A DNA stretch of 64,000 nt from Flammulina velutipes. Lineage: Eukaryota > Basidiomycota > Agaricomycetes > Agaricales > Physalacriaceae. A model generated the notes under the pieces. The model was not told where the DNA came from and made no database searches. It was given only the letters and a program-made list of their open reading frames with translations. The stretch is from NCBI GenBank assembly GCA_011800155.1, contig CM022375.1:1364001-1428000 (forward strand), read 5' to 3'. Position 1 is the first letter of the stretch. Each line of letters opens with the position of its first letter. The position numbers and the translations under genes were made by a program. Below, one piece after another: positions 3,013 through 46,171 of this stretch.

Positions 3013-3014
3013 TG

Positions 3015-4020: not shown

Positions 4021-4064
4021 GATAGTGGAGAGATCCTGACGAAAGTGACCATCCTCCAGAACAC

Positions 4065-7822: not shown

Positions 7823-7854
7823 GATAGCGGTCGCGAGAGATCCTAACCGAAGTA

Positions 7855-17794: not shown

Positions 17795-18049
17795 GATAGT
17801 CGTGAACGAAGATTATGACGAGAAGAATTAAGTATGCTGAAGAACGTTGGTACCTTGTTTGATTATCAGAAAAACACCATCGACCCTAGTCACGGGAGCC
17901 AATTGGGACCGCGACATGTGTTGAAGCAATATATCTGGTAAGATTGGTTCAGCTTTGCATGAAGCGCCTACTATGAAGGAGTAAGGGTACCACAGGTATA
18001 TCTGACTCTCGGGTCATCCAATGCAGATTTCAAGCCCAATACTCACCGT

Positions 18050-18979: not shown

Positions 18980-19790
18980 ACGAGACTTACACTCGTCAAC
19001 TTGCCCTCATCCGAAGACGTTCTGAAGCTTTAGTCAATGTTCACGACACGGACCAAACGCGGACTCAGTGCTGCTTTATAAAACCAGCTGGAATCGACTT
19101 GCTGAAGCTCCTATAAAAACCTGTCCGCTGCCTATGTGACGAGTGCTGGTTGCTATCTATCTGCTCTGGCTGTTTCCAACGACTATTATTTTCCCGGCTC
19201 AAACGTTCAGATCCTTCATGGGAATTCTCAACAGCTATTCGGTAACTTCCTAGCTTAATTACTTATTTCCGTGGATTCATGTAGGCTCCCATAGAAACTG
19301 TCTCGCCGCAGCGTTGTATGTCCGAGTCGATCTTGCGAATTTGGGAACCGGTTTATACGAGGCTGTCCAGGAAGACTTGTTAGTGTTACGATAGAGGGCC
19401 CATCATCTCTTATGCGCTCGTATTCCTCGAAAACAAAACAACGCGTTCTTGTCGGAGCAGGTGACCGTTACAGCTGGGCCCAATGGACACGACTTTCATC
19501 GATTAACTTTTGGCTAAGGTTCATTTTTTACCCACCCGATTCCAGCAACGGTCGCACTAGCTACTGGACATTAATTTGTGGCTGTTCGACTTGTGAGTAG
19601 TACGCTTGTCCTGTGGTACGCCTCAAATACACCTGGAAGGTACGGACTGAATCATATTGTGCCCTTAATCGTCGTACTATGGAGACAAAAGGACATTTGT
19701 AGAAAGATATACTCCCGGGGATGTGCTGATCTTGCACTGCATAATCCGCGGCGTAGTCTGTACTATGGAAACAGTCTGATTATAAAGTTC
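18980..19790 (+). repeat. Duplicated upstream block of prodomain-like gene 1 (paired with about 43000-43900)
   Basis: The block matches the reverse complement of 43.0-43.9 kb in several islands: the ACCAAACGCGGAC region near 19050, the CGAGTGCTG..ACTATTATT region near 19140, the AACGGTCGCACTAGCTACTGG region near 19550, and ATCTTGCACTGCATAAT near 19730. Both blocks sit directly before a member of the secreted prodomain-like family. The older part carries remains of a membrane protein, and the 3' part is the shared promoter. Confidence 0.75.
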
Positions 19791-19823
19791 GTCCTTTCAT
19801 TTCCATCCACAGTATCAAGTGCA

Positions 19824-20592
19824 ATGCACTTTTCATCATTCAACATCCCTCTCGGCGTCACATGTATTCTGGCAATCTGTGCGACCGGCCATCCTACCGG
19901 TACGGGCCTCGAGGCTCGCGTTCCAGGTCTTCCTTTGGAGTCCAATTATGGAGAACTTGATGTGGATATGAAATGTGAGTCCGGTACACGTTGCCTTGAG
20001 ATTGATCCTGACGTTGGTGCGCCACAGTTGTTACACCCGATGGCAGTGGCCAAGCGAGCGACCTCATACTCGAAATAACTTTCACGAATAAGTATGATGA
20101 GGATATTCAACTTTTAGAGGACGAAAACAGTGTTCTGGATAGATCGCGGCCTGTAGATGTGCTGTCATGGACTTCAAGTCGCATCGGGGTTCTTCCGAGA
20201 TTCAGAGGAGACTCTGGCACTGACAGCTCCGACTCAGATCACACTGATTCATATTCGGAACAAGGCAATTTTGTTTGGTTATTTCAAAAGTTATTCACTT
20301 AGCCCTTTATCAGACCCAAAGGTGCACACTACCGTGAAAAAGGGGAGCTCCTACGTGTTCCAATACAACGGTTTGTCATCCACGCGTGCGGTTCAAACAC
20401 AACTAACATGAAACAGTTGGGAAATCATACGACTTCCAAAGCGTTATGCCTGGGTCATATACAGCCCAGTTCACGCAATCTCAGTTTCGGATATCTATTG
20501 AGGGAAAGGTAGTCGAAGCCAAGGCAAATCTAAGCAGGACTATGATACCCGTTGAGATACAGGAAGACAAACAATCGCCAGATAGTCAATAA
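19824..20592 (+). CDS. Secreted orphan M35-prodomain-like protein 1
   Basis: Four exons (19824-19974, 20028-20264, 20314-20370, 20417-20592) sum to 621 nt, giving 206 aa. Residues 1-22 (MHFSSFNIPLGVTCILAICA) are a signal peptide. The rest is one beta-rich domain with the hallmarks of the prodomain of M35 metalloproteases. DLILEITFTNKYDEDIQLL corresponds to the (V)TNTGDEDLKLL segment, followed by SVL, then FRGD. KSYDFQSVMPGSYTAQF corresponds to the YDF..AGTYTF segment. No HEXXH zinc site or catalytic domain follows: the protein stops at 20592, so it is not simply a truncated protease gene. Intron 2 appears to use a GC donor (GCAATT). Secreted proteins of this shape could act as protease inhibitors or free-standing chaperone-like domains (inference). 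Confidence 0.75.
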
Positions 20593-22343
20593 CTAATGTG
20601 TGTACGTTACTTGACCTAATACAAAAGCAGTCCAATAGCATCGGTATCTGGCAGGTTGTTGTTTCTTGATGATAATCTGTGGCGTAATTACAGCTTGCCC
20701 TGGTTACCTTGCGTTTTAGCAGCGCATGGCCCTACACAGCCCGCCGCCGGAAGTTACGGAGTATAGAACAATCTAAAGAGGGTTCCAACGCAATCCTTTA
20801 CTTGCATGCGCCTCGCAAAGCAACCACTTGCCCTCGCTGTCGCGTGTGTTCAGGTAATGCGGCAGCTCATCCACTTAGAGCGAGAATCCAGACCAAACCC
20901 CTCCTTTTCATCAAATAGAATTCGAACGAGACGACGCTGAGAGAAAGACTATGGAGTACCTTCAGTTTGACACAAATATATCGGGCACTTCATACACTCA
21001 TCCGTCTAGAGGAAGTACGTATAGATTCTGACTTCAGCCACAGAAGTTCTGGATTACAACAGAAAAAGGGAAGACAGAGATGCAGAAACAAGCCATCGTG
21101 TCAGAGGAATACAAGTCCACGAAGAATTGGAATATAGAACAAGCGAGTTTGATAGATTGTAAAGTAGCGAAGATTTCAGCAGCATTGTTCACGGTACTCG
21201 TAAGACTGTTTCGTTCCCAGCATTGTCCTAATGGTACACTTGTCGCGGATGAGATTCTCGGACAAGGAGCGGAGGAGGCTAATCTGGCCTCAAAATCGAA
21301 TCCTCGGTGGCTGGGAATGAAAATTATGGTTGGCGATACCATGGGCGTAAGGAATGGTCGTGGAGGAGATAATTCGTAGCGCGCGGAGGATGTCGATGGG
21401 CCACTCGAGTCCAAATAACGTGAAAGGCCGATACCGGCAATGCCCGCTACAATCAAGCTAAGTACACTGCTACAGCCTATTTTACACCGTCAGTAGAAGG
21501 ACCTTACATATATCGTACTGACTATACTAATCGTAAATACTCATGATCGCTGCGCCCGGCTCTGCCGCACCCACCTGCGGTGGGTGCTCTCGAGCCAGCG
21601 CCACACCATCCCTTTGTTTAGGGTTTGCTAAAAAGTACAGTTTTGTGCTTTGAATTCGCGCCCTTGAGCCTAACCACATCGTTTGGAGGCTAGTCTTTAC
21701 GCGCTGGTGGCGCAACGGCTCTCGCAGACTCATTTCGGACACTACATCACGACTCTAAATCTCGGCCGAGGACGACCGTCAAAGACTTTCTAGACAGAAG
21801 GAATTTCTTTGAAAAATGTTCTATAAAGAAGGAAAAGAACGAATGAACGTGACCATTTACGTAACTCGCGTCCCATCGAGCGCCAAGCCCACATATTCTG
21901 GCAGGTGCCTTAAAATGTTGGCGGTAAAAGTGGTGTTTTCACGAGTATAAGACCCTCTACTAAAGTAGCGGGAATTGCCTGATGCACTCCGGTTAATATT
22001 GCCAGTCACGCCTATCCATCGGGGACAGGGATATGGGGGTTTTTGGAAGCCGTGGGAGATAGTATCGTCAACACATGGTGGGTAGGCCGAGTGGAAATTG
22101 AGGATTCCTGTCTGAGGAAAACGAATGGAGGGACAAAAGAAGGCAGAGAACGAACCTCTTGACGGACCAGACTCTTTTTGATGACGGTAAAAGGCAGGAG
22201 GTTGTTGTGCTTTGTGTATATATGTGGGCGCTCGATTCCATTGGTTCACCTCTGATCATTAGTGGACATGGAAAAATGAAATCATTTAAATAATGTGAAT
22301 TGCATATTGACAATGACATGGTACGAATGATTTTTTTCCATCT
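20593..22343. other. Stretch without a confidently recognised gene
   Basis: A decayed membrane-protein piece on the minus strand (about 21456-21320, WPIDILRALRII) and a degenerate repeat at 22140-22245 shared with 16.3, 18.7 and 24.5 kb are the only structures noticed. Confidence 0.35.
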
Positions 22344-23720
22344 CTATGAGTCGTACTTTGGCCTGGCCGCTAAGGTTATCTTAGCACCTGGTTCCGCCCA
22401 ATCTGCCGGCGGCTTGTCTTGGTTTTCCTGTAGTGTCAATCCGATATCTTTCATCTCTGCATCCGAGAACTTGGAAACGGGACCTTGAGTGTCACGGGTG
22501 TCTATCTCGCCTTTCGGGAACTTGGAGCATGACAGGAGGTGGTAATTCTTCTGTGTCAAATACGGCGCTTTCGCTTTCGTTTCCTTCCGAAGTGCGTATT
22601 GATAGAAGCCAGAGGTAATATCTGGAATGAATGTCAGTGAACGTTCTCAGAGGTCACAATCATTATATACCTCCACCGACGGGCATCATCGGTCTAAAGT
22701 AAACTGTGAGCAAAGAATGCCAGTGAAGTCATTAGAGTGGAACTTGCCCAGCAATCATGTCATAATCCTTGTCAGTGATGGCTTTGATTCTGGCTATGGC
22801 CTCTGGAGAGATATCGACTCGATTAGGACAGTTATTATACGTGCAGAACTGTGATTCTAACGTTCAGAACTGGTACGGTGGGATTTATCGCACTTACATC
22901 TGCATATTCTTCCTCGCCCTCCCATTCTTCATACGACCTGATCTTCAAGTCCTCTCTATAACCATGTTAGAATGAAGAAAACACTACTACTGTGTAGACC
23001 TACTGGGTTCCATCCCATTCATATTCTGTGGAATGGTCATTGGGAGCAGGTACTCATCGGAAACGGAAAGTACATACCAAATACAACGGCATGTGAACCA
23101 TCTTCTCCTCTTCCATGACAACCCCACTGAGCTGCGGCTCTCAACGAGTTCGTGAGATAGAAGGCACCTATGACATTTGCAATCAGCTACTGATCATTCA
23201 GCGTAAATGAGATATTGCTAGTACCATTGGCCGATAGATCTCCTGGATTGGGGAATATCCTGACACCTTTGTATAGCGAGCCGGCAAACCTTGGTGGTGT
23301 ACCGTGGAATAGCGTGATCTTTGAACTAGGATTGGGACGGTCCCTGGTGTCGAATTCGAATGCGACCTCTCCGAATTCATCGTCATTACCACGACGGCGG
23401 TTCGCCTGCGAGAATTCAGGGAATAGCTCGAGAAATTCTTTGTCGATGTATCTATCTTGGGATCGACTGTTGGCCATACAGAACTGACAGCGCGGTTAAG
23501 TACAGCATAAAATGCATATGCACAAAGGTATACGCACGCCGTCTGCAGTCTTGACGGAGAACCCTGATTTAGTAGATTTCCAAGAACCACCACCAGAGCT
23601 CTTAGAACCTTGTGAACCGGGGGATCCAGGCCCTCCTGGGTTAGGAGCAGCACTGGCAGACATTCCAAGTACGACGGCGCCGAGCAAGAATACTCGGAAG
23701 GAAGCGCTAAAGGCAACCAT
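22344..23720 (-). CDS. Secreted ADP-ribosyltransferase-like protein 1 (DUF3990-like motifs)
   Basis: Multi-exon gene from ATG 23720. A signal peptide (MVAFSASFRVFLLGAVVLGM, ending near SASA) is followed by a Gly/Ser/Pro-rich linker. Then come RYIDKEFLELFPEF, the motif KITLFHGTPPRFAGSLYKGV, NPGDLSANG, and after an intron FYLTNSLRAAAQWGCHG, VVFG and YEWDGTQ. The C-terminal third has FCTYNNCPNRV, MMPVGGG and DTRDTQGPVSKF, ending at 22344. The LFHGT / GD / FYLT..A..W order matches the ADP-ribosyltransferase-like fold seen in DUF3990-type proteins, where the His and Tyr line the NAD pocket. The catalytic Glu could not be assigned. The intron before PMMPVGGG has a GC donor (GCAAGT). Substrate unknown; four paralogs are in this window. 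Confidence 0.72.
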
Positions 23721-23820
23721 TTTAGAGATGTATTGGAGATTCTACGACCTATGGTGGGTTAGACAGAAACAACAGGCGCGTTGTGGAAACCTGCCTGCGT
23801 AAAAGAGAAAGGGCGAACCA

Positions 23821-23843
23821 ATTGCACCGGGCAGATAATGTTC
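23821..23843 (-). promoter_or_regulatory. Shared upstream element of the transferase-like family, copy 1
   Basis: ATTGCACCGGGCAGATAATG (plus strand) lies 101-123 bp upstream of the ATG. It is followed outward by a TTTTTAAATG AT-rich box. The same element precedes the other three family members. Confidence 0.7.
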
Positions 23844-23849
23844 AGCTCA

Positions 23850-24846
23850 TTTTCACTGCGTTTTTAAATGTTCGTGGCTGGGTGAATGGATGCGATGCGT
23901 ATGTTGGTTGTAGGTATCAGCAATGCAATGACATGCTGAAGTACTGACCAGACTGACACATTGCAATGTGTTTCGCAATATTGAACACTGCCACCGACAT
24001 AACACCGCACGCCATAATTGATAGTGATGAGGCAAATGTTAATCTGGGCAAGAGCATACTCACCGATGGTACTTTAGCTGTCATTCGTAGCTCCACGCTT
24101 CCCTCGCACGATATCGGAGGTGTTTGAGATACTTATGTGTTGATACATAGCACCTACCGGCCCGATAAATTGCGCCATCGCCCGTCGCATCGTCAATAGC
24201 CAGCCACTAGCTGTCTCTACCGCACCGCCGAACGTTAATTCGTCGCAAGTATCCTTCCGGTGTTCCTGAAGATGGGACTATCTTCCTTCCGTCCATAGTA
24301 CAGGCCATAGCCCTAAGCCTGTCATACATTTGAATACAATATATCGGTCTCATCCTTCCTCAGCGAGCTCACCCGAGTCTGGCAGACGATCGTTCCGTTC
24401 ATTTACATGGCCATAGGTTGTGGACCTGCGGAGAGTTGCATGACTGAATAAACCTGGGAGGGAAGTGGGGCCAAAGGCCCGAGTTTTCATTATCTTTGAA
24501 AAAGAAAAGCCTGTCTTGATGAAGATGCTGAAATCATTGGTGGTGATGGTAAACGGTAGAGTCTGTCGGTTTGTTGTAGTTTGTAGGCATATGTAGGCGT
24601 TCATTTCCCCCCGACGGAGGTATTTCCCCATTCGGTCCGGATTAGTCGGGTTATCTAAAATTTCACACTGGGGTAACACTTTCATATTCGAATAGGGTAG
24701 ACAACTGTGAGCAAGTATGAGTATACAGAGTTCTCCAGAACGTCCATGCCGCACGGTAATTTGTGCTGCGGCATTTGCCGACATTTAGTGTTTGTATGTG
24801 TTGCCATTTTTGGACACGTTCACTTGCAACGCTCATCGTCAATGCG
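23850..24846. other. Intergenic, no gene recognised
   Basis: Contains the distal promoter of the divergent gene pair and, at 24545-24600, the most degenerate copy of the repeat also present at 16.3 and 22.2 kb. Confidence 0.4.
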
Positions 24847-26885
24847 ATGTCGGTTGCAGTACTCGAAGTAAGAACTTTGACTTTACGGTCCACGGCTACT
24901 GACTCGGAATCAATCACGCAGGAAGCGGCAAGGAATGGGGACCACGCGGCCCTTCTTCATCTTCATGCTGTCCTCATAGCCGATACCTCTTTCAGCCCTA
25001 CCCTCGACATGCTGAAAATCTTCTCTTCATTTCTCTCAAGTAAACACCGACTAGACGCCAGCAGTCATATCGCCGCGCGCACACCTTCTGTACCTTTGCT
25101 AGGCATAGACTCAATCGCCAGCGCACTTGTTGCACTCAACATCGTCGAACGGACTTTCATTAAAGCCACCTCGCTCTATGATACGCGACTGTCTGCATCC
25201 ATCACTGATCTTTCACCTGCCATTATATCCTGGTTCATCATATTACTCCCAATCACTCCAGAACTCGGTCATTCCATTGTGGCGGCCCTCGGCAACACAT
25301 TATGCCTGCTTCTCTCCGATGACACAGCTTTACCAATAATCGCGCGTAACTCAGATATACTTTCACTGTTCCCCATACTCCTCGATACCTGGATCTACCT
25401 TTCCCAACTCCGTTCCCAAACACGCGACGAACTTGCTACATACACGTACGATTGCGTAATTTGCAATCTTCTCATGATATTCCATGAAGATAGAATGCTA
25501 CAACTGGCCGATGTCGGGGCTGCCGCGATTGAAGCACGTGCTGACGACTTCAGTGCTACGCTCGCCACAGAGCTCTCGACGCTTACGGGGCGCGTAGGCC
25601 AATCCACCAAAAAAATCCCCGACCGCCACTTCTCCGCCTTGATCCTTATATTGCATTACGCTAAACGAGGTTTACCTGCTCGCCGCAGCCTCGCTCGCTC
25701 AGGCATCCTTCCAATACTCTGTCGAGCCTTCCACAATGCTGTCAGACTCGAGATAGACGTGCATGACGAGTACGAGTTTATGAAAGACATCTTCATGTTT
25801 CTTCAGCTCGGGATAGGTTCATTTCTTCCTGGCCCACCCGAAAGCAGTTATATACCTGCCCTCCGCGAGAAACTTCTGCCTAGCGTCCTCCGCATGCAAC
25901 ATTTGGTGACAAAATGGGCGACTCCTCATCTATCCAGTGATTGGCACAAGCTCTCCCAGGAGATCGAGGTTCGCTCGATCAATCTTATTGAGCAGCTGAA
26001 TGCTGCCACCGCTTTCGAGTCTTGTCGTCGCTTGTTCCAGAGCTCAATCAAGTACATCGAACTCCTCGTTGAGAGGGATGAGCTGAAGCCAAGTGGAAAT
26101 ATCTGGAACGCTTTCACGCACCTGCAGACGCATTTGGTGTTGTATGGGGCAGAGAAGCGAATTGGGAGATCTACGAAGATTTGCACCAGCCCTTCGGTAC
26201 TTCACGCGTGTTACACATGTCTTCTCATTTAACGAGTCTTCTCAGTGTGTCAAGCACATCGTTTGGACAGAGAATGACTCAATACCGATGCGAGGGCATC
26301 GCTGTAGTGGCTGCCTCCTTGCGGAATACTGTTCCCTGTCGTGCCAGAAAGTTCATTGGAAGGAAGGTGGGCATCGGGGTCAGTGTTCAAAGATCAAAAA
26401 AGCGCGTGCAGGTAGAGTGATCCCAATATTATTCCCAATATTCCTACGCCTTTGACACCTTCTCCATAGATCTTTCGAGCCTTGGGCCATACTGTCCTCG
26501 GGATATCGACTTTATCCACGCCATAGCCGAGCGGAAACTGCAAAAGGACATATTAGCCCGTGAAGAGTTCAAGAAACAGAAATGGTTGTTTAGTATCATG
26601 AATGAGGTGATTGTCGTCAACTTTACATGTATTAACCATGGCTGGCCGGACAACGACCATGATACCATGCTTGGGGTAGATTTGCTGACGTTGTTCTGGT
26701 ATGATTTCTTGGAACAAACCAGGGAGCTCCTCATAGACTTCGAACAGAAACAGTGGCTGGACCTCCTCGATCGGAAGGGCTTGCAGACTCCGTATGTCGC
26801 GATTATAGTTTGTTCGAGGTTAGTGCAGTTGACGGATTTTGAGGGTCTCAAAGCGAGAGTATATCCCGTAGGGGTATTTACTTAA
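24847..26885 (+). CDS. MYND-type zinc-finger protein
   Basis: Three exons (24847-26196, 26246-26411, 26470-26885) sum to 1932 nt, giving 643 aa. The first 445 residues are a long helical repeat-like region without recognised motifs. The zinc finger spans about 446-495: ICTSPSCVKH supplies the first Cys pair, HRCSGC the second, then EYCSLSCQKVHW and HRGQC complete the C4-C2-HC ligand pattern of MYND fingers. A C-terminal domain of about 150 aa (from DLSSLGPYCPRDIDF) follows, as in many uncharacterised agaricomycete MYND proteins. MYND fingers bind proline-rich peptides, so a protein-interaction role is likely. The start is the first ATG that gives an ordinary N-terminus. The frame is open further upstream to 24763, so extra N-terminal residues cannot be excluded. 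Confidence 0.85.
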
Positions 26886-28029
26886 ATGATTGTACGTTTT
26901 TGATTTCTTGAAATTGTACGTACCACACGCTGCAGCTTGAGACGGTCCTGTGTGGCGTGGAATGTAGTGAATATCATCGGACCCAAAGGTGTATGAACAT
27001 GTGGAAGAATCGGAAGATAGTATGTAATCTATAAGCCACCGTAGCCCAGTATCATTGTGGTGACGAGGGCCGAGAGATTGCCTAGCGCCACCTCCTGGGA
27101 CAAGTCGGGCCGAGTCCGAGACGATCAGTGAACATTGAAATATCTACACGATAGTGGTTTATTGTGTGGAAATACATGAATGTTGAACGTTGCACGTCAA
27201 CCGACCAACCTTGACGTACATACGAACGTGCCAAAGCAAAAATTAATCAGGGTCGCTCTCACTCGTTGCCGATAGGCGCCGATCTTTTGCCTTGGACTTT
27301 TACCATCACGATGGCGCACTTACGCCACCATTTGTCCTGTACCATTCTCATTTAACGACGTCACAAATGAATAATACTCACCTTGGTACCCGTCTCTGCC
27401 TCAGACAACCAAACCTGGCTTTGTTCAAGGGAAAACTCGGTCTAAAACTTCTGTCACTTTCATAGGTGCGTATCCACGCTGTCGAAACGGCACGCGATTT
27501 GACACTATTTCAGCTAACCTACAATGTAATGTCCGTCTAGACGACGAGACCGTGGAGTTGTATCAACGTACTACGCTAGCTATCAGCCTGCCAATTATCG
27601 ATTCATCGAATAATTATTGGCGGACATACACGCCCTCTCTCATTTCTGGAGTGTTACTTTCAAGAGCGCTATTGATCCTCGAGTGGCGCCACCTGTGTAA
27701 ACCTTCTTTCCCGGTTCATCCACTAGTCCACGAGAACCTGACGAATTTATCTCCTCTGATGTTTGTGAATCTAGCTAGACGTGCGCTCAAACTTCCACAG
27801 GGGACGATGGCCATCAGGGTTGTGAGAAGTGACGCTCAAGGACAATGGTGTTCACCATTGTATTGTGTCACTTTGTTTGGACAATCTTGAACATGACAAG
27901 GAGCATCAAAGGGATAGTCATGCTTCAAGTGTCGCTCTTTTATTCCCGCCAGCATTTGCCTCTCGCTGTTCTCTAAGGTTTGTCTATCCTCCCGTCGTCC
28001 TCCTTCTATTCACGGTCTATCATAGAAGC
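26886..28029. other. Intergenic, no gene recognised
   Basis: Only short frames. Position 27552 opens a plus-strand frame of 112 codons without family resemblance. Confidence 0.4.
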
Positions 28030-29568: not shown

Positions 29569-29687
29569 TGCTGAGATAGCAAGTTAGTTCTGTTATATCA
29601 TTTTCGTGGACTAAATGTGGCGCATCGGGTATTATGATGTCAAATTGTGTATTTTAATTCGTCTGAGTCTTTCCAAATTTATGTTAA

Positions 29688-32542: not shown

Positions 32543-33307
32543 ATGTACCTTTCGTTCCTACAAATCCCTCTCGGCGCTGCATGCCTTCTGGCAATCTGCG
32601 CGACCGGCCATCCAGTACAAGGAACGAATATTGACATCAAAGCTCGATGGCCAGGATTCAATACTAATAAAAATCCATTGGACCTGAAGATAGAATGTGA
32701 GCAGGAAAGAGGTACCTGTCCTTGCCATTTTGATACTGACATGTCACAGATATTGATCCTCCCTCGGGCAAAGCCAGTGATCTCGTCCTTCAGATAACTC
32801 TCCAAAGTAATGTCAAGGACCTACATCTCTTAAAGGATAGGAATAGAGTCCTCTTCGACAGGGCGCCTGTGGATGCGTTGACATGGAAATCCGGACTCTA
32901 TGGTACCCCCCAATTCAAAGGGGACTCGAAGTCAGCCGGTACAGAGATCGGTAAGCTGTTTCTCCCTTCCAAAAAATCATCCTCACTAATCCTCTCATAG
33001 ATCTTATTGAGAATATTTTCACGCTGAAGAAGGACATGTCTTACAAATTTCTCTACAAGGGTTTGTCATAGTTTATAGATGGGATACAATCATTGACTGT
33101 TGCGACACAGCTGGAGACTCGTATGACTTTGCAAAGGTTGCAGCGGGGACTTATATAGCTTCCCTCAAACCACCTTGGTTTTGGGTAATGTTGGATGGCG
33201 AGAAGGTAGATAAGGTGTATGTACCTGAAGTGGAATGTCCTATACCAATTGCGATAGCTCCGAAGAAGGAAGATTCAGCAGATATCCAAGTAATGTATGT
33301 AGATTAG
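32543..33307 (+). CDS. Secreted orphan M35-prodomain-like protein 2
   Basis: Four exons (32543-32696, 32750-32950, 33001-33060, 33111-33307) sum to 612 nt, giving 203 aa, with introns at the same places and phases as in gene 1. The signal peptide begins MYLSFLQIPLGAACLLAICA, followed by TGHPV as in two sister genes. The domain shows DLVLQITLQSNVKDLHLL, FKGDS and DSYDFAKVAAGTYIAS, the same landmarks as an M35 prodomain, with no protease domain after it. The core strand TLQSNVKDL has lost the usual TN.GDED spacing, so this is the most diverged member. It ends with a short acidic tail. It is head-to-tail with a broken sister fragment and with gene 3. Confidence 0.72.
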
Positions 33308-33565
33308 TTTTAGTTAGCTATGTTTCTGATTCGTGAATGCATGTGTGGTTCAGAAGGAAGAGGCTTTGCCGGTACTAGTTCCAGCTTCGGAAAAAGGCCG
33401 TCCTCAAAAAAGATGTGTGGCGTGACCCCATCGCGGGAATTCAACTAGGGTGGTAGTACTTGTATTCTGGAAGAGTGATCGTGGTGAGAAGGGCGGCACA
33501 AACAAACGGAGCAGAGCGTAGATTTCTGGCTGTACAGAATGCCGAACGGAGAAGTATATGTGTGT

Positions 33566-33739
33566 ACAACTTCCGAAACGTTGCCGCTGGGCACTAAGTA
33601 TACAGCAGAGTTCAGACCAGCTCAATTTTGGATATCGATTGGTGGGAAGGAAGTCGAAGCCAAGTCGAATCTAGAGGGCATCATAACGCCCGTTGAGCTA
33701 GAAGGACAAAGGAACCAAGGACCGTCGGGTTCTCCATGA
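33566..33739 (+). pseudogene. 3' fragment of an M35-prodomain-like gene, frameshifted
   Basis: The sequence from ACAACTTCCGAAACG to the stop at 33737-33739 is nearly identical to the last exon of the gene at 42.2 kb (positions 42215-42390 on the minus strand). A 4-nt insertion in GGGCACTA(AGTA)TACAG breaks the frame relative to that gene. Only the last exon is readable, ending ...VELEGQRNQGPSGSP. The flanking intergenic DNA is also homologous, so this is a product of the segmental duplication described at 33.5-35.0 kb. Confidence 0.8.
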
Positions 33740-34026
33740 GGGATTACTTAACTAGAAAGAAAAGAACTCAGGCTTGGTTCAATAATTCATGCGATTTGCG
33801 TTGTGAAGCGACTCGGATCATTTCTGACTCCAAACATACATATCATCAGTATCAAGTGCCGATCCTCCCGTGTGGCGTAACCGCACCATGGCAAAACGAC
33901 TGTGGCTGTGTAAATAAATTTCCTGCCCTACTCGTATGTGTATTGATCGGAGTCCGGTAACAGAGTATGGATCTCCACGGTTTGTCACAATATATAACGA
34001 TTGCCAAAGACGTCGTCGACACTCCG

Positions 34027-34990
34027 ATGCAACTACTCGTCGTCGCCCTCGTGTGTATTCCGGCAATACGCACGACAGCTCACCCACTTCGTGCCGGAGT
34101 CGATGGAGAATCTGGTATAATAGAAACAAGAGCAAAATTCCACTCCTCGTTCCTTGGCATCTCATTAAAAGGTATTGAAACGCCACACTTTTCGTTCTCC
34201 TCGTCCTATCTAACGATTGAAGCCCCCAAGAAAATCAAAAAGTTCGATGAGTTTATCGTCAAGATCACCGTTACGAATTACGGTGACGAGGATATTCAGC
34301 TTATTAGGACGCCAGATAGCGTTCTGTATGACAGGAAGGACTTCACGGAGGTTGATTCGGATAATGGCACATTGCCTCAAGGGCTCGCCGACTCGCTCCA
34401 GTGGATTGACTTGGGAGATGGAAAACCAAGATTTCGAGGCATTGATGACCGTGAAAAATGGGATATCGACAAGTTCATTAACCCGATGAGGAAGGTTGCC
34501 AAGGATGAATCGACTGGGACTTGGAATCGGAGGCGCGGTGGTGATAGTGACGGTAATGGCGATGGTGAAGATGAGGATGTAGGGTCCAAACCCAAACCCG
34601 AAGAAGGGAACGATGAGGACGTAGATTCCGAGTCCCAGCCAGAGAATGACACTAAGCGAAAACTAGACGGATTTGGGTTTGTACCAGATGCCGCTGAGAG
34701 AAAGAAGAGACTCGCTACATTGAAGAAAAGGGGGCTGAAGTTGAGCGGCTCATCGAGCAAAACCTTCTTGTATGACGGTATGTGCGTGGTGCGTGTGTGT
34801 GACGTTTTGTCTAACGGTTTATTCAGCGAACGAGGCGTACATATCCCATCCCAATGTAGCCAGATATGGCTTCCGGCTTATGCCACAGATGTTCTCGTAC
34901 ACAAAGAATGGAGGGAAGACAATATCGCAGACGGAAGTGACCTTGGAAGAGGATTTTACAGTGCAGCTCAAAGGTTCTGCGCAACAATAA
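34027..34990 (+). CDS. Secreted orphan M35-prodomain-like protein 3, with acidic insertion
   Basis: Three exons (34027-34171, 34223-34777, 34827-34990) sum to 864 nt, giving 287 aa. The signal peptide is MQLLVVALVCIPAIRTTAHP. The core contains FDEFIVKITVTNYGDEDIQL, RTPDSVLYDRKDF and PRFRG. The middle has an inserted stretch rich in Asp/Glu/Gly (DSDGNGDGEDEDVGSKPKPE and onward) that genes 1 and 2 lack. After DGFGFVPDAAERKKRLATL, which looks like a proteolytic-site-rich linker, the last exon gives YGFRLMPQMFSYTKNGGKT and the terminal strand. Its closest relative is the gene at 40.5-41.5 kb. Secretion is likely. The acidic insert could bind calcium or a basic partner (inference). Confidence 0.75.
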
Positions 34991-35204
34991 ATATTGGGGT
35001 TTTTTGACGTTAAGAGAGGCTTGTACCTATCTAATGCCTGAATCAATCTACAGCGCTAGACGAAGGAGTCGACTTTCCCTTGAAAGATCAAATCACCACC
35101 ATATGAATTCCACTGCACCCCCAGCAAAAATCAGGGTTTTGAGAGTTCCTACATTTAGACATTCTCCATCTTTATGACCGGCAAGGCCGAATCTCTGCTG
35201 GCCG

Positions 35205-36700: not shown

Positions 36701-37531
36701 GAGAAAGGAGGCAATGCACGGACAGCTATAGTCCCAACACCTTTATAAAGGTGGTATAATGATCAGTGTGGAGATGATTACGGGGAAGCGAGGGCTGTCG
36801 AAGTCCCCGTCCATATCGAACCGAAGTTGACACCCCGATCGTACTTAAGTACCTCTCGGAGTCTGAAGCATGCGTTAACCCAAATAGTTTTGATATGCGG
36901 TGTCTATCCTGTGGTAGATGATCAGATATATGACAGATCGCTCCCAGAGGAGCTTGTAAATCACATATCAAGGAAGGAAGGATTACTGAGGGATCAAGTT
37001 GACTACTACGCTCCACGGCGCATACTGGAAACGACGATTCCGTTCGGATGGCCTATGAAAGACGTTCATGAGTTGCAGGAGCGTCAAAGGTCAACAGCTA
37101 TACATCCAATCGCCGAGCCAGACGACGGTATTGCTGGCGGTGCGGCTGTGATCTGTCATCATGATTAGTAAGTGTGGCGTAAGCGAGGACGAAAAGGAAT
37201 TGTTCTTGGGAGATAATTGAAGCCGAAGGGGTACTGGATTATACAGAGCAGCAGTGGTGATAGGTTTATCTGAGACAGCGGTACCTCTACGAGGCAAGTG
37301 GAAATCTAGCGCGGACCTGCGACGGGTGAGATGCAGATTATACCGTAAATTAGATCATGAGAGGACATGGTGAGGAGGTGAGGAGAGGTCCGAAACATAA
37401 GGTAGTGCAGAAAGCGATGCGATATGTAGTGTGAGTTGTCCATAAAATCCTTGTAAAAAGAGAAAGGTCCGTATAAAGACATCCCTGTTTTGTGGTGAGA
37501 TAGACGTGAATGGGTTGAAAAAGGGGACATA
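36701..37531. other. Intergenic, one unassigned open stretch
   Basis: Plus-strand codons from about 36880 to 37168 read like protein (SLPEELVNHISRKEGLLRDQ) and stay open for more than 90 codons but lack an ATG start and any family match. It may be an exon remnant. Confidence 0.35.
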
Positions 37532-38159
37532 CTATAGTGCCCTAGCAGCGTTTCGGAGGAGCTGGAACCCAGACAGGAATACGACGAGGAAGGTGGCTGC
37601 GAGGGTGACAATGGTTGGTTGTGCGATGTAACTCGAAAAACTTGAATTGCATATCGTGCATTCCCAACCTGTACGTGCATGAGTTGGAGATCTATGAGAA
37701 GGGATAGAAAGGCTTACCGCTTGCCAAAGGTGTGTACGCCTGCGGTGTATAGAACGCAAAAGTAAGTGCACTGTTTGGGACCATGTATCCGCCGAGCCTG
37801 CTGGCTCCAAAGCCACGGTCGTCGCAGATGAGGAGAGTGCACGTTCCCTGGGGAAGCGGGTTGCTCGAATGCGACTGCTGGTAGGAATAGACGTCCCAGA
37901 CGACCTGCGTGGCATCCCCGTCAATGACGCCATCCGTCGCTGGGCCCACTGGGTACGTGTTGGCATTGTCGCATCGCGCCGACACTGTGAGATGCGTCGG
38001 CGTGGCGATAACGGATGTCATATTCCATGCAAAGGTGACCATCTGGTTTTCTGCGATTTTGTAGTAGGACGTTGCCGTCTGCGGTGGCTGCAGGATGGTG
38101 AGCCCACCAGCAGCAGCGGTCTGCGGAATAGAGAGCGTTGAAGTGCGAGACGACGACAT
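37532..38159 (-). CDS. DUF7137-family extracellular/membrane-anchored protein (N-terminus uncertain)
   Basis: Two exons joined by a GTAAGC..TACAG intron near 37680-37723. The body contains AAAGGLTILQPPQTATSYYK, FAWNMTSVIATP, TYPVGPATDGVI, VVWDVYSYQQSH, RGFGASRLGGYMVP and FAFYTPQAYTPLASGWEC. These are all landmarks of the fungal DUF7137 domain, a beta-rich cell-surface module. The last exon ends with a hydrophobic helix (TIVTLAATFLVVFLSGFQLL) and a short basic tail, so it is a single-pass membrane anchor. The conservative start is ATG 38159. The frame continues upstream through VFVVVAVVRSSLSA, which resembles a signal peptide, so a first exon probably lies beyond 38250. Function unknown; likely at the cell surface. 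Confidence 0.82.
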
Positions 38160-39119
38160 TGCGGACAGCGAAGAGCGAACGACGGCGACGACGACGAAGA
38201 CCTGGTGGACGTTGCAAGACAACCTCGAACGGTCGACAAACACGGTGATGGAAACACCGTCACACGTGACATCGCTCCTTCTTCTCGACGTCCATCATCG
38301 CCGGGCTGCCGATTTGTTCGTCGTCGTCGTCGGCCACGGTGACCACGATGCGATAATATGACATCTACGCGTCGAACGAATGCTTGTTAGGTCCGTCGTC
38401 TCTTGCCCTCATACGCACATCTTTGACCTAGTCGTAGTGGTCGCATATATGCACCATTTCTATGGCGAAATCGCTTTTGTTAGTCGTCGTCGTCAGTCGT
38501 GAGGCCAGCAATTACATGGCCCGGAATGCTCTTCATCTCTGGCAGCCTGCTGCATCATTTCTATGCGGGGAGTCGCCGCCTAGCGCCATAACGTGGTTAC
38601 TGGTACGCAGCATTGTTTGCTCCTGAGCACGATCATCATGTCCTTGCAGATTTTGGCGACATCATCCTGGAATATTGACATATCCTCTCGGGGACCATAG
38701 GCTCAGGCTGGACACTGCGGCTCAGTATCAAATACTGGCCGCGTTTGTTTGGTACTTTGAGCGTTTCCTAGACGTCTGGCTCTCTGATCTTGGAGATTTT
38801 GAATCTGGGTGCGCCACACTTACCGGTCACCCAGGCTCATTGACAGTTTCCCTCAAGGCGTTGCTTCTGGTATTCGCTTAGTTAGCTGTCAACCTCTGGC
38901 ATGGTACTGCACGAGTTGGAAGAGTACTGATAGCTGTGTATCTATTCAATCATGAACTTCTTTGACGCGATTTAACCATACCAAAAGGACGAAGAAGTTT
39001 CCTATGCCTGCCGTTGCATAGCCATTTGCTGTCGGATGTGACTATCCTTATCGATCTCTCTGCAGTCCGATATAAGTAGAGCGTCAACCCGCCCAGTTAC
39101 TTATCCTAGGCGATACGTT
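38160..39119. other. Upstream region with GAC/GTC trinucleotide runs
   Basis: 38155-38345 is rich in GACGAC/CGTCGTC triplets and probably holds the first exon(s) and promoter of the DUF7137 gene. From 38350 to 39119 I see no gene. Confidence 0.4.
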
Positions 39120-40395
39120 ATGCTCCGTCTCTGCATCCTTCTGTTCCATCTCCCTAGCGCGCTATCCGCTACGACGCAGGACGAGGATGCAGTGCCCCAG
39201 TCTTGCGATGACATCCATGACTGCCGTACGATCTTCGATATCGTCTGGGGGTGTCTCGCGACGCTCTTCGCGTGTACATGGCTAGCCGTGCACCCAAACG
39301 TTCCACCCTCTCACTGGGGTATGCTGATGAGGCTTTTGGGTCGAGTCATGATCATGTTTCTCACCCTCATCGCTCCCGAGATCATCGTCTTCTGGGCCGT
39401 GAGGCAATATCTCTTTGTACGCCAAATCACGAAAGGTGAGACAGCTTTCTGTGTGTCCTATCTACGTGCGCTGACCTCCTGGAACTTGTAGAGCACTCCG
39501 TCTCCAGATCCCATGCATTCTTTCTCTTGATGGGAGGTTTCGAAGATTCGCATGGCACTATCCTTACGCACATGTCCCCATCGATTGCCCGAGTGCCCGT
39601 CGAGGATATCGTCGACCGAAGCAAAAGCGACGTCCTATCCAAGACGGTAGCGTTGGTTCAGACCTCGTGGTTCGTCGTCCAATGTCTTGCTCGGGTCGCG
39701 CAAAAGCTACCCATCACCGAGTTGGAGCTCTCGACGTTGGCGTTCACGTCCTTGAACTTCTTCATCTATTTTTTGTGGTGGGACAAGCCGGTGGACGTCC
39801 AGCATCCAATTGTTATCCCACGGAGGCGCATCGGTCCAGTGGTGCCTAGCCTATCCGATGTAGCCGCTGCATCCTACGTTGAGAGAGGGATACCGAACTT
39901 ATGGATTGACGCATTGGGATGGCTTAATGTGGCCAGTTTGTCCTCGTTAGAGTATCCGGAGTGGAAGGGGAGCTGGTTGCAGCGGCTCTTTTCAATAATC
40001 CCGTTGCGGTCAGCAGCGAACCGTGGTCCCCAGCTGACCCCCTTTCGCTTGATTGCCTTGGTCTGCGAGGTCACTGCCGCCCTAGTATTTGCTCTATTGG
40101 ATCGGGGTTCCATTTTTGCGATGATTTTCAGAAGACATTGTGGATTGCCGCCTGTGGGCTCACCATGTTCGTTCCGGTATCGGTGAGTATATTGGGAGTC
40201 TTGTATGCCACGTCTACCAAGGAACAAATCCATGGCCATGTACTGGGGTTGAACGCGATTACGGGTATGCTTGCTTTTGCTGAATACGTGATCGCGCGCA
40301 TCATGCTGGTAGTTATCGCATTGACGTCCCTGCGATGTCTTTCATACAATATCTACAATGATGTTGAGTGGTCGGGATATATTCCACACGTGTAA
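39120..40395 (+). CDS. Uncharacterised fungal multipass membrane protein (TWLAVHPNVP family)
   Basis: Three exons (39120-39435, 39492-40084, 40132-40395) sum to 1173 nt, giving 390 aa. The protein begins with a signal-like hydrophobic stretch (MLRLCILLFHLPSALSATTQ), then CDDIHDCRTIFDIVWGCLAT. Next comes FACTWLAVHPNVPPSHWGML, a strongly conserved segment in this family, then LTLIAPEIIVFWAVRQY. SHAFFLLMGGF follows, then ITELELSTLAFTSLNFFIYF and LWWDKPVDVQHPI. Two or three more helices precede the terminal YNIYNDVEWSGYIPHV. Homologous proteins are widespread in ascomycetes and basidiomycetes without an assigned activity. A duplicate of its last 18 codons lies at 44430-44486. I name only the family pattern, not a function. 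Confidence 0.8.
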
Positions 40396-40515
40396 TAAAC
40401 CAGTTTTATCTTGTTTATTGACAAACACCCTTATTTTACCACGATCATTGAAGCTATGATGCCTACTTCGTATTATTCAGGCCTTGAATGTTCAGCATTC
40501 ACCAACTAGTTTTCT

Positions 40516-41481
40516 TCAGTCTTCCAATTCCATCTCCACTGTAAATTCCTCTTCTAAGCTCACGGTCTTCTGGAGTGTTGTCCTCCCTCCATCCCTTGTA
40601 TACCAGAACTCCTGCGGCTTAAGCCGGAATGAATATTTTCCTGTGTGAGAGCTGAAAATGTACGCATCGTCCACTTCAACTCGTCATCAGACAAAGATCA
40701 TGTAGGTTCACAACGCACATACCGTCATACAAGAAGGTTTTGCTGGACGAGCCGCTCAACTTCAGCCCTTTTTTCCTCAAAGTAACGAGTCTCTTCTTTC
40801 TCTCAGCGGCATCTGGCATAAACCCAAATCCGTCTAGTTCTCGTTCAGTGTCCTCCTCGGGCGTGGACTCGGAATCTACGTCCTCGTCGTTCCCTTCTTC
40901 GGGTTGGGGTTTGGACCTTACTTCCTCGTCTTCAACATCGCCATTAGCGTCACTATCTCTATCGCGCCTCCGATTCCAAGTCCCAGTCGATTCATCCTTG
41001 ACGGCCTTCCTCATCGGGTTCACAAACTTGTCGATATCCCATTGTTCACGGTCATACTTGCCCCGGAATTTTGGTTTTCCATCCCCCGAGTCGATCCACT
41101 GGAGCGAGTCGGCCAGCCCTTGAGGCAATGTGCCATTATCCGAATCGACCTCCGTGAAATCCTTTCTGTTGTACAGAACGGTATTTGGCGTCCTAACAAT
41201 CTGGATATCCTGGTCGTCGTAGTTCGTGAGTGTGATCTTGATGATGAAGTCGTATATATCAGTGATCCTTCTCCTGGGGACTTCAATCATTAAACAAAAC
41301 AAGCAGGACGGAAGTGTGGCGTTTTACGTTTTAGCGAGATACCCAGCAAGGAGCTGGATTTTCCTCTTGTTTGGACGAGCCCAGATTTTATTTCGACTGC
41401 GGCTCGAAGTGGGTGAGCTGTCGTGTATATTGCCGGAATACACACGACGGCGAGGGCGAGCGGTTTCTTTGCGATGCGCAT
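40516..41481 (-). CDS. Secreted orphan M35-prodomain-like protein 4, with acidic insertion
   Basis: Three exons on the minus strand from ATG 41481, mirroring gene 3. The signal peptide is MRIAKKPLALAVVCIPAIYTTAHP. The core has DFIIKITLTNYDDQDIQIV, PNTVLYNRKDFTEVD, LPQGLADSLQWID and PKFRG. The acidic insert (DGDVEDEEV and PEEGNDEDVDSE region) and DGFGFMPDAAERKKRLVTL follow. The last exon encodes GKYSFRLKPQEFWYTRDGG and ends EFTVEMELED. It is about 80 percent identical to gene 3 in the core and lies in inverted orientation to it. No catalytic domain follows. The 3' splice acceptor before the last exon (GAAG/TGGACG) is not a strong one, so that junction is the least certain. Confidence 0.74.
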
Positions 41482-42212
41482 CGGAATGCAGGATGGCGCT
41501 GGTAACATATTTGGCAATGGTTATATACCTGTGACAACGCATTTTAGAGAGCCGGTGTCCAATCATTACACATACGGATAGGACAGGATATTTGTTCACA
41601 CAGCCGCCGTCGTCTTGTCAGAAGGCAACGTAGCCAGTGCAAGGCGCGATTAGGCGGCGGGCCACACTTGACGATCGGCGTTGGATAGAGGTTTATCCTC
41701 GGGGCTCAAACCCCTCTTACTACTAAGTACTCAGAGCGGATTATATCTGCTTTGGAATGATGATAGAAACTGGAGTTCTATTACAGAGGAGGAAATTTTA
41801 CTATCTTACAAGCACTGATACGATGACAGAGATGATACATTTCAGTGACCATTTCCGCACTCCGACAGAGCCCGAAACGGAATGTATCCCGCCCGTTAAA
41901 ACGACGAAGGAAACGGCGCAACCACTGAAATCGTTACTGAAACGTACCGGCCCGGTCGTCCCGCGCATTTCAGTTGAACGGAGACCTTGGATTTTACTGG
42001 AACGCAGCGTTTCCGTAAGAATCTCAGGAGGGCTGGATCATACACTATCCTTGTTCATTTCAGTGTGCGGGATCTATACCATTTCAGCTGCAATATTAGG
42101 ATGGAGATGCAATTTTTCCTAATCCGCCGTGAGTATCCTAGTCGCTTAACAGCGCCAGATCGCATGAATTGTTGAACTTTGTCTACATTCTTTTTTAAAC
42201 AGTCAAGTAATC
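41482..42212. other. Intergenic of the duplicated block, with about 440 bp of extra sequence
   Basis: Both ends (about 41490-41640 and 42130-42212) match the spacer between the broken fragment and gene 3 at 33.74-34.03 kb in inverted orientation. The segment around 41660-42125 has no counterpart there and contains four CATTTCAGT-like words. It is an insertion in this copy or a deletion in the other. Confidence 0.6.
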
Positions 42213-42990
42213 TTATTGAGCACCCGACGGTCCTTGGCTCCCTTGTCCTTCTAACTCAATGGGCATCATGATCCGCTCTAGATTCACCTTGGCTTCGACC
42301 TCTTTCCCACCAATCGATATCCAAAACTGAGTTTGTCTGAACTCTGCTGTATAGTGCCCAGCGGCAACGTTTCGGAAGTTGTATGAATCTCCAACTGTTC
42401 CATGATGTTAGTGATTGAACAGCATACTTGGGGCGCAACAAACCGTGATATTGGAACGTGTAAGAGTCCCCCTTCTTAATGGCAATGTGCACCTTCTTGG
42501 GGTCTACTGGACGTTTCAGCGAACAGCTTGTAGAAAGCGAAGGAACTTGCCTTTGTTCAATTGAGTGTCTAGTTCCAACTCAGCATCATCAGAGCTTTCC
42601 GAGTCCCCTTTGAATGTCGGAAGAACGCCAACGGTACTTGAAGTCCACGACAGAACATCAACAGGCCCACCACTATAGAGCACGCTGTCTTTATCTTCTA
42701 AGAGTTGTATGTCTTCATCGTAGTTATTTGTGAATATTATTTCGAGTATGAGATCGCCGGCTTTGCGACTGTGGTCCTGCGTACGAACTGTGACGCATAC
42801 ATCAGTATTAGGATGGAATATGTGGTGTCCAGCGCTCACATTTTGTCTCCACTCCCAGTTCACCTTTGGTACCAAATCCAGGCAAGCGAGCTTCGATACC
42901 CGTACCAGAATTTTGTAGCGGATGACCGGTCGCACAGATTGCCAGAATACATGTGATGCCGAATGGGATGTTGAGTGATGAGAAGTACAT
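42213..42990 (-). CDS. Secreted orphan M35-prodomain-like protein 5
   Basis: Four exons with the same intron positions as gene 1, from ATG 42990 (MYFSSLNIPFGITCILAICA signal peptide, then TGHPL). The domain reads DLILEIIFTNNYDEDIQLL, DSVLYSG, FKGDSES, KKVHIAIKKGDSYTFQYH and DSYNFRNVAAGHYTAEFRQT, and ends VELEGQG-like to the stop at 42213-42215. Intron 2 starts with a GC donor (AACAAAG/GCAAGT), the canonical non-GT donor sequence. It is close to gene 1 in promoter and coding sequence and close to the broken fragment at 33.6 kb in its last exon. Secreted, single-domain, without protease domain. Role unknown; an inhibitor of M35 proteases is a testable idea. Confidence 0.76.
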
Positions 42991-42999
42991 TTTGCTTGA

Positions 43000-43900
43000 T
43001 GCTGGAGATGGAGATGAGAGCGCGACCTTTATATCAGGATGTTTCGGTAGCGCCTGACTACGCCGCGAATTATGCAGTGCAAGATCAGCACGTCCGCGGA
43101 AGTATATCCTTCTACGAGTATCCTATCATTTCCGTAGTATGACGAGTAAGGGAACAATTCGTATCTTGAAGATGTATTCAATGCGTACCTCGAGGCTCGG
43201 GGCAAGTCGAACAGCCACAAAACAACGTCCAGTAGCTACTAGCTAGTGCGACCGTTGCTGGCTTCGGGTGGGTGAAGAATTTACCTCTCCTCGATGTTAC
43301 CTGACGAAATTTATGTGCTATGCTTGGACGAACGTTGGGTGCAGCTGTAACGGGCACCACCCTCGACGAGAACACATTGTTTCGATTTCCAGGAGCATAA
43401 GAGAAGGAAGCCCTGGGTCGTAACGCTAACCAAGCCTCATGAACAGCCAGTGAACAGCCCCGCACAATGATACCGATTGCCGAAAAGTTCGCGAGATCGA
43501 CATGCACCGTTGTGGCGAAACAGGCTGTTACTATGGGAGCTTACACGGCAGGCAACCCATGGAATATGCCAGGGATGGAGTATACCGCATAGCCTTCGTG
43601 AATTTCTTTGGAGGATATGAACGTTTGAGCCACGAGAATAATAGTCGTAAGTTGAACAGCTATAGCGGCCAGATAGCAAACAGCACTCGTCACATATCGT
43701 TCCTTAGGAGTTTCAGCGAGTCAATGCCAGTCGAGGTTATACAGCAACACTGCGTCCGCGTTTGGTCCGCGTCGTAAACTTGGACTCGGAAAGGCGGAAG
43801 AAGAGAAAAGCCGGACATGCCAAAGCCGACGACTTTGGGACCAAATGGAGGTAAACAAGGATACCGCCTCTTCATGGACGACAACGTCTCCTTACTGAGT
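43000..43900 (-). pseudogene. Membrane-protein remnant and duplicated promoter before prodomain-like gene 5
   Basis: The minus strand at 43760-43560 reads AVLLYNLDWH, a stop, then TPKERYVTSAVCYLAAIAVQ and LTTIILVAQTFISSKEI, a clear hydrophobic helix, before another stop. The frame is broken at least twice. The lower half (43030-43260) matches the promoter of gene 1 at 19.5-19.8 kb. The pair shows that a membrane-protein fragment and a prodomain-like gene were duplicated together. Confidence 0.6.
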
Positions 43901-44429
43901 TACTCTGCGACACATTACGCTCTACACCGGCTTGAAATTCTGTTTTAGGGCTTCCAGAATACATTTTCCATTGCAGACGCGCTACCGCACAGCTTTGACG
44001 ACTCTCGAAACATTCTGTCTTACTCAACATACGACTAGGCTGCTAAGCTCTCCGTGACCCGCTAGTATCCATAAATACCTCGACTGTTCTCTCACATCTC
44101 CTTGAGTACCACCTTCACCATCCTCCCTCTCGTTGCATCACCTCAGACCCCAGGTGCTCAGCCATGCTGAACAGTCCTGTTTTTTGATGCACTGGGTGGC
44201 GTCAACGAATAACTGCCACGAATCCTGAAACGTGGATAGCGTTCTTGCTATAATCTATCGACCAGGGTCTCTTGTTGTGCTGTATCATGATCAGGCGCCG
44301 TTCCTTTGTGCACCTTCGTCGTTGGACTCACAACATTGTCAGCAATACAGGTGGCGTGACGTCGACGCTCCTACACACGGCTCTCTTTCTTGGCGTTAGA
44401 TGTGTCCCAGAATTCATTTGTTTCGAATT

Positions 44430-44486
44430 GCTTCTTGCAATCTTTACAATGATGTAGAGTGGTCGGGGTACATTCCACACGTGTAA
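44430..44486 (+). pseudogene. Duplicated C-terminal fragment of the 390-aa membrane protein
   Basis: Reads ASCNLYNDVEWSGYIPHV followed by a stop, against SYNIYNDVEWSGYIPHV at 40345-40395. The DNA identity extends past the stop (CACGTGTAATGAACC against CACGTGTAATAAACC). Upstream sequence does not continue the match. Confidence 0.85.
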
Positions 44487-44680
44487 TGAACCCGTTGTTC
44501 CTTGAATATCGAGAACAACGCTAGGGCTAGTTGTCAATTGACCTTCGAAGGGTTACTCACATCGATGCGCCACACTTGGCTCTGACAAATATCCGAGCAT
44601 TTATCACGGCACAATGATCATGAGACACGAAATACTAAATGAATTCGTTTAGAGGCTGTAGTACTGTATATGGGAACAAA

Positions 44681-46042
44681 TTATGTATCCTTTGGCCTGG
44701 CTGCCAAATCTATCTTACCATCGCCAGTTGCCCAATCTGCTGGGGGTGCAGCTGTGAATGAATTTTTGCCCGTCAGTCCAACGGATTTCATCTCCTCTTT
44801 CGAGAACTTTGCAACGGGGCCTTGGGTGTCGTGGGTGTCGATATCTCCTTGCTTGAACTTATCGCAGTCCAGGAGGTGGTAGCCAGTCCTCGTCAAGTAT
44901 GGTGACTTGGCCTTGGCCTCTTTGAGAAGGGCGTATTCATAGAAGGTGGGGGTAATTGCTGGAATGAATGTTAATGCCATATTTCAGTTCCAATGAAAGA
45001 CAGTACCTCCACCAACGGGCATCATCGGGCTAGAAAAAGTAATTAGACCGCGGGAACGTGCGCTCCTTTGAAAGAAACTTGCCCAGCTATCATGTCATGA
45101 TCCAACTCGGAGACTTTCTTGGCGTTGGCTAACAATTCTTTACTGAGTTTTGGCGATGTGCAGAGGTTGTAAGTGCAGAACTGCGTTGTCAAGTGTCAGT
45201 ATTGACGAACGCCGCCCAGATATGTTACACTAACAGCCATGTATTCTTCTTGGTTCTCCCAATCTTCATAGGATCGAATCTTCAAGTCCTTTCTATAACT
45301 GGTTAGCAAGACGAGATCGACATCGTGGCATTCACATACTGGGTTCCATCCCATACATATTCTGTGCAATAATCATGATTGAGGAGTCGTACGCGAAGGA
45401 GGGAAGGTACGCACCAAACACAGTGGTTTGTTCGACGGCTGTTCCTCTTCCATGGCAGCCCCATTGACCTGCGGCTCTCAACGAATTCGTGAGATAGAAG
45501 CCGCCTATAGAATCGATGAGACGTGATTCGGCGTGGTGGGGGAGTACCACAATTACCATTGGCAGACATATCTCCCGGATTGTTGAATATCCTAATACCA
45601 CTGTACAGCGAGCCGGCGTACTTTGGAATCGTACCATGGAACAGCGTGATCTTCGTTTTGGGATTAGGGCGGTTCTTGACATCGAATTTGACCACGACAG
45701 GCTCATCCTCGTCATCACTACCAGCACGACGGCTCTTCGATTTGGCGAAGTCGGGGAATAGTTTGAGGAATTTCTTGTCCTTAAACCTGTCAGGGGATGC
45801 GCTGTTGGCAATACATTTCTGGTGAGATGTTTCAGTGGCGTGTATGGAGGGAAGTGCAACAGAATACGGACGCCGTTGGCAGTCATGACTGAGTATCCTG
45901 AAGAGCTGGATGACGATGATGAATCGGATTTGGTAGAACCACTGGGAGATTTTCCTCGTCCGGGGCTTGGGACGGCGTGGGCAGATAGCCCGAGTACGAC
46001 CGCTACCGCGAGAGCTTGGAAAGAGGTGTTGAAGGCGACCAT
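44681..46042 (-). CDS. Secreted ADP-ribosyltransferase-like protein 2
   Basis: Multi-exon gene from ATG 46042 (signal peptide MVAFNTSFQALAVAVVLGLS, ending near AHAVPS). A Ser-rich linker follows, then DKKFLKLFPDF, a charged segment, TKITLFHGTIPKYAGSLYSG, NNPGDMSANG and, after an intron, FYLTNSLRAAGQWGCHG with TTVFG. YVWDGTQ lies in its own small exon near 45360. The C-terminal third includes FCTYNLCTSP, DHDMIAG, a GC-donor intron (GCAAGT), PMMPVGGG and DTHDTQGPVAKF, and ends at 44681. Same ADP-ribosyltransferase-like layout as copy 1. Predicted to be exported. No partner or immunity gene is evident next to it. Confidence 0.72.
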
Positions 46043-46149
46043 TGTGTATAGAAAGGTTGGGAGAGTTTATACGACCTGTATATGGTCAGGTTATACGGGC
46101 TGAGTATGGACGTAGGACTCACCTGCGTATAAGAGAGTAAGAGAGGAGT

Positions 46150-46171
46150 GATTGCACCAGGCAGATGATTT
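46150..46171 (-). promoter_or_regulatory. Shared upstream element of the transferase-like family, copy 2
   Basis: GATTGCACCAGGCAGATGAT (plus strand), about 108-129 bp upstream of the ATG at 46042, followed outward by CTTTAAAG as a TATA-like box. Confidence 0.65.

Follow-up and report, generated by a model that had tools for sequence, protein, structure and literature searches.

M35 metallopeptidases, such as deuterolysin and peptidyl-Lys metalloendopeptidase, are secreted families in fungi. Their propeptides are cleaved off, partly at Kex2 sites, and for one recombinant mutant of peptidyl-Lys metallopeptidase the propeptide was seen after its release as a band apart from the mature enzyme (PMC11985622). 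Some of these peptidases serve virulence (PMC7215534), and some are used in proteomics as Lys-N type enzymes (PMC11985622). Propeptides encoded as small genes of their own are established for subtilases: stand-alone subtilisin propeptide-like inhibitors (MEROPS I9) occur in Pleurotus, yeast and Arabidopsis, and Plasmodium has SUB1-ProM, which is likewise secretory (PMC6993865). No stand-alone M35 prodomain was found in the portions available of the literature searched, which lay mostly outside subscription journals. Here, genes for such free-standing M35-prodomain-like proteins (orphans; PRO genes A to E) are described from a 64,000-nucleotide stretch of the Flammulina velutipes genome (the window, C8:1364001-1428000; genome of 38.1 Mb in 23 contigs, C1, C2 and so on), where they are interleaved with genes for ADP-ribosyltransferase-like (ART) proteins.

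Stand-alone M35 prodomain genes

Gene models were spliced from the window sequence, guided by comparison among paralogues, with introns of about 50 bases. The PRO genes are as follows.

19824..20592, plus strand: gene A, 4 exons, 206 amino acids; leader and stand-alone M35 prodomain; intron 2 with a weak GC donor (GCAATT)
32543..33425, plus strand: gene B, 5 exons, 221 amino acids
33565..33740, plus strand: broken copy, 3' fragment of an E-like gene (33565-33818 against 42383-42135 in self-comparison, 83%)
34027..34990, plus strand: gene C, 3 exons, 287 amino acids; long acidic insert
40516..41481, minus strand: gene D, 3 exons, 289 amino acids; long acidic insert; open reading frame
42213..42990, minus strand: gene E, 4 exons, 210 amino acids

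A first-pass annotation of the same letters had counted four intact genes and one broken copy. The models give five open genes and, in addition, the 3' fragment; gene D, which reads open, may have looked broken in that count. Gene A is modelled with less certainty than the other four, because its intron 2 needs the weak GC donor. GC-AG introns stand at fixed places in both families, namely intron 2 of A and E and intron 6 of the ART genes F, G and I.

The PRO paralogues are 38-71% identical within A/B/E and within C/D. All nine proteins of the two families (A to I) begin with a hydrophobic leader, judged by hydropathy alone (best 9-residue mean 2.6-3.6). Proteins A to E end where the prodomain ends. 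The M35 catalytic domain (PF14521) had no match in the window in a genome profile search (53 matches) and none in A to E in a Pfam scan. Each orphan is thus a propeptide with a gene of its own and a leader predicted from hydropathy to be secretory, the catalytic domain being absent. A protein database search with gene E returned one short relative, P0001, a 142-residue database protein from short contigs. Its 5' part is gene-A-like and its 3' part gene-E-like, a mosaic that would stem either from gene conversion in a different strain or from chimeric assembly.

The resemblance to M35 prodomains noticed in the first pass was borne out by profile comparison. Aligned with hhalign, the five orphans matched ten M35 prodomains of the same genome with a probability of 99.5% (E 5e-23); the ART family matched the same M35 profile with a probability of 0.4%. 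The orphans also share two introns, identical in position and phase, with the genome's own M35 genes (after ...SLK| and ...YN|VGD, both phase 1). Both are present in 5/5 orphans, the second in 11/11 M35 models and the first in 9/11; one of the two models without it began after exon 1 and the other was modelled in phase 0. We take these shared introns to mean that orphans and M35 genes are of common descent. Most M35 genes read also carry an N-terminal prodomain resembling the orphans. These comparisons show that the orphans derive from M35 (deuterolysin/aspzincin) genes like those of this fungus, that they retain the signal and prodomain exons and lack the catalytic domain, and that they were duplicated in place on C8. 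A sequence search of the PDB with the M35-prodomain profile gave no match.

The orphans are therefore like the N-terminal prodomain of M35 metallopeptidases in profile, intron places and phases, leader and boundary, but unlike these enzymes they are separate genes with no catalytic domain following. They share with the I9 inhibitors that a peptidase propeptide forms its own small gene (PMC6993865). They differ from them in belonging to zinc peptidases of M35 rather than serine peptidases of S8, in their evident homology to prodomains of the same genome, in forming a multigene family and in being known from genes alone.

Ratios of nonsynonymous to synonymous substitution (dN/dS, with bootstrap 95% intervals) were 0.35 (0.23-0.52) for A-E, 0.38 (0.21-0.60) for A-B, 0.37 (0.21-0.58) for B-E and 0.52 (0.38-0.74) for C-D. 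Since these intervals exclude 1, the orphans appear to be maintained as proteins under purifying selection; the ratios are pairwise averages and leave room for local positive selection. The five ART pairs in the window gave 0.17-0.30, and the ART pair J-K, outside the window, 0.50 (0.36-0.69). Genes A to I are not chance reading frames: the paralogues have the identities given here for each family, and for each of the nine pairs compared in the window dN/dS and its interval are below 1.

Separated prodomains and catalytic domains elsewhere in the genome

A search with gene C added two orphans that lie upstream of the window by 35-37 kb (C8:1328.0-1328.9k and C8:1326.6-1327.4k), so that seven orphan models with open frames are present on C8. 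Further PRO pieces were recognized by eye near C8:1327.7k and 1329.2k. An M35 cluster on C1 contains another two prodomains that lack a catalytic match, near 4370.0k (no leader seen) and near 4376.0k (read without its 5' side). Two M35 genes of the same cluster, C1:4386k and C1:4433k, had no prodomain match; their models join a leader exon by a phase-1 splice to a short linker, after which comes the catalytic domain with its HExxH. The M35 prodomain and catalytic domain are thus dissociated into separate genes within one genome, which is the point of interest here.

The M35 set is large. The 53 PF14521 matches were grouped into 47 places, 13 of them judged from search rows alone, and many are clustered on C5, C1 and C8. 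A prodomain match was found within 2 kb upstream at 41/47 places (search coordinates, six added from a further search). Two more have a prodomain by profile (C2:3598.5k and, weakly, C4:3475.8k). The remaining places are the two prodomain-less genes, one on C5 that is split and one at C7:2139.6k with stops in the match. In the C5 case (L067, C5:694.9-698.3k) the prodomain and catalytic matches stand about 2.5 kb apart, as if the gene had been interrupted.

Orphans might be mis-annotated halves of M35 genes with a catalytic exon nearby. This was rejected on C8, where PF14521 had no match from 905k to 2728k, and on C1, where no catalytic match fell within 2 kb of the orphan exons. In a tree of 39 rows (left out were the prodomain-less L056 and L058, the interrupted L067 and the weak L060), the C8 orphans formed one clade (98/91) and the C1 pair another (100/100). 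A single orphan clade was not rejected by the approximately unbiased test (p 0.19).

The ADP-ribosyltransferase-like family and its surroundings

The four ART-like genes reported in the first pass, two of them at 58.5-61.9 kb, all proved to be open, with eight exons each.

22344..23720, minus strand: gene F, 8 exons, 337 amino acids; leader; H-Y-E triad
44681..46042, minus strand: gene G, 8 exons, 333 amino acids
58536..59851, plus strand: gene H, 8 exons, 316 amino acids
60450..61857, minus strand: gene I, 8 exons, 348 amino acids

F to I are 49-60% identical. Seven close copies were found in the genome (F to I; J and K at C8:1436.3-1440.1k; one at C9:202.2-203.5k), with four more distant places on C10 and C13. 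The ADP-ribosyltransferase-like motifs could be confirmed as an H-Y-E triad: HGT, FYLT and E are invariant in 8/8 rows of the family alignment (A3) and are kept in copy J too. A database search with gene G returned one Mycena protein, and the family profile returned nine proteins, which included seven further Mycena proteins. A sequence search of the PDB with this profile gave non-significant matches only (best E 0.23).

The closest described domain is DUF3990 (PF13151) of the ART clan (PMC7955679), which was weakly matched by 8/8 rows at E <= 0.1, with the HGT, FYLT and FE motifs in common. Unlike DUF3990, the proteins carry a leader and an N-terminal extension and stay below the curated cut-off of 32.2 bits, with 21.1-25.8 bits in three window proteins and no row above 25.8. 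A precomputed annotation assigns PF13151 to the Mycena relative P0007. Being multi-copy and, by its leaders, predicted to be secreted, the family can also be compared with the secreted, multi-copy ART-like proteins of Beauveria bassiana; these have an ART fold, and their clusters are likened to heat-labile enterotoxin and diphtheria toxin (PMC12099005). We read the ART-like genes as an independent secreted H-Y-E ADP-ribosyltransferase-like family, duplicated in the same duplication-prone region as the orphans; their products probably modify an extracellular target or one in another organism.

Several other families are duplicated in the same stretch. A third multi-copy family occupies window positions 3069-4046, 6628-7853, 13850-15027 and 16605-17800 and continues on C8 some 5-20 kb beyond the end of the window. 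It comprises seven gene-sized copies, mostly 65-75% identical, and partial pieces upstream. Two copies resemble a multi-pass membrane protein by eye, and the exon scanned had no Pfam match. Two tandem short-chain dehydrogenase (SDR) genes (47043-47765 and 48731-49454) are 75.5% identical in DNA. An open reading frame at 7995-9251 (minus strand) contains a DDE_1 transposase domain (E 8e-36) and shows that mobile DNA is present here. At 2852-3072, 221 bases are 100% identical to a copy about 10 kb away (L051, about 7.1-7.3 kb before the window start); this is a very recent copy. The domain scan placed F-box, nitronate monooxygenase and SDR genes in the window, and Rfam and tRNA scans gave no match. 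These genes, the introns of about 50 bases and the Mycena relatives of the ART family are what a mushroom-type basidiomycete would show. In our reading the neighbourhood is prone to duplication, and several families grew in it, perhaps during shared bursts.

Possible roles of the free-standing prodomains

The orphans probably inhibit secreted M35 peptidases in trans or serve them as chaperones, and they are situated beside an ART family that was duplicated independently. Secreted prodomains would act in trans on the large secreted M35 set of the fungus. Most likely they bind M35 catalytic domains, by analogy with the subtilase propeptide-like inhibitors and with the cleaved M35 propeptides; from this analogy we infer binding, partner and an effect as inhibitor or folding helper alike. 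Inhibition is reasonable to propose: the first-pass remark that free-standing prodomains inhibit proteases in other families accords with the subtilase precedent (PMC6993865). In this way the orphans would control the amount or timing of proteolysis, or stand in for the missing prodomain of some M35 enzymes. Their nearest logical partners would be the M35 peptidases of the same genome, not the ARTs.

Some observations weigh against this proposal. The orphans are far diverged from M35 prodomains, with long stem branches in the tree, which could mean a new role. Those on C8 do not stand beside an M35 gene, the nearest match on this contig being C8:904.9k, about 0.42 Mb from the nearest orphan. 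The query for the C1:4433k splice model was assembled from that locus's own reading frames, so independent support there consists in the absence of prodomain matches. On the ART side, the triad is broken in 3/8 aligned Mycena relatives, with the H missing in P0008 and the E replaced by Q in P0003 and P0005, and some of these, each having lost one residue, may be inactive transferase-like proteins. A modest model of a Mycena relative (mean predicted local distance difference test score, pLDDT, 58.7; P0009 was left out of the fold alignment A4) resembled ART folds. Foldseek with this model gave no match at E <= 0.001, and its top row was an unrelated phage protein.

Divergence and long stem branches would also be expected if the prodomain beta-domain had been re-used for binding, adhesion or an effector role with no peptidase partner. 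The long acidic insert of C and D and the lack of an M35 match within about 0.4 Mb of the C8 orphans point the same way, but the orphans preserve the core pattern, intron frame and prodomain boundary, and acidic inserts are found in ordinary M35 prodomains of this genome too; we regard re-use as possible but doubtful. A split zymogen, in which an M35 peptidase is divided into separately encoded and separately secreted halves that meet outside the cell, is an unlikely arrangement. It would join the seven free prodomains on C8 and the two on C1 with the two prodomain-less catalytic subunits on C1, and the ratio between the two gene families, instead of the cleavage of a single precursor, would determine protease activity. 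That the orphans are functionless, decaying M35 remnants is the least probable explanation. The fragment at 33565-33740, the pieces near C8:1327.7k and 1329.2k and the weak donor of gene A would fit decay, but all four PRO pairs tested gave dN/dS below 1 with 95% intervals excluding 1, and seven C8 models have open frames.

The first-pass annotation had further proposed that the two families spread together as a linked island of offence and protection, ARTs attacking and prodomains protecting. The interleaving it described is seen in the order of the gene models A to I, and the pairs A-F and E-G are spaced alike (1.7-1.8 kb). Their orientations differ, however, and the A/E homology (19032-20559 with 43786-42252) stops short of the A-F gap. 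A 94-kb self-comparison displayed gene-sized duplications with some flank and no block holding a PRO and an ART gene, and duplication of such a block was rejected. In protein identity G lies nearer the C9 copy (65%) than F (62%), but dS does not show this. In this one genome, 0/5 ART places outside C8 are near an M35 or prodomain match (the nearest is >1 Mb away on C9 and C10, with none on C13), and C1, the contig of the other orphan pair, gave no match in the ART search. The membrane-protein-like family and the SDR pair were duplicated in the same stretch as well. Synonymous divergence does not decide the matter, as it neither proves joint spread nor counts against it: the youngest pairs are similar (C-D, dS 0.35, 0.26-0.45; J-K, dS 0.37, 0.27-0.46), which refutes the idea that C-D is younger than every ART pair, and the intervals of A-E (0.56-1.09) and F-G (0.84-1.60) overlap. 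Joint spread of PRO and ART genes is not supported, and an island of this kind is improbable.

The occurrence of orphan prodomains and prodomain-less M35 enzymes in one genome makes prodomain action in trans directly testable. If inhibition or folding in trans holds true, fungi would carry an encoded set of inhibitors for M35 peptidases, comparable to what I9 is for subtilases, and specific M35 inhibitors would become available to the laboratory.

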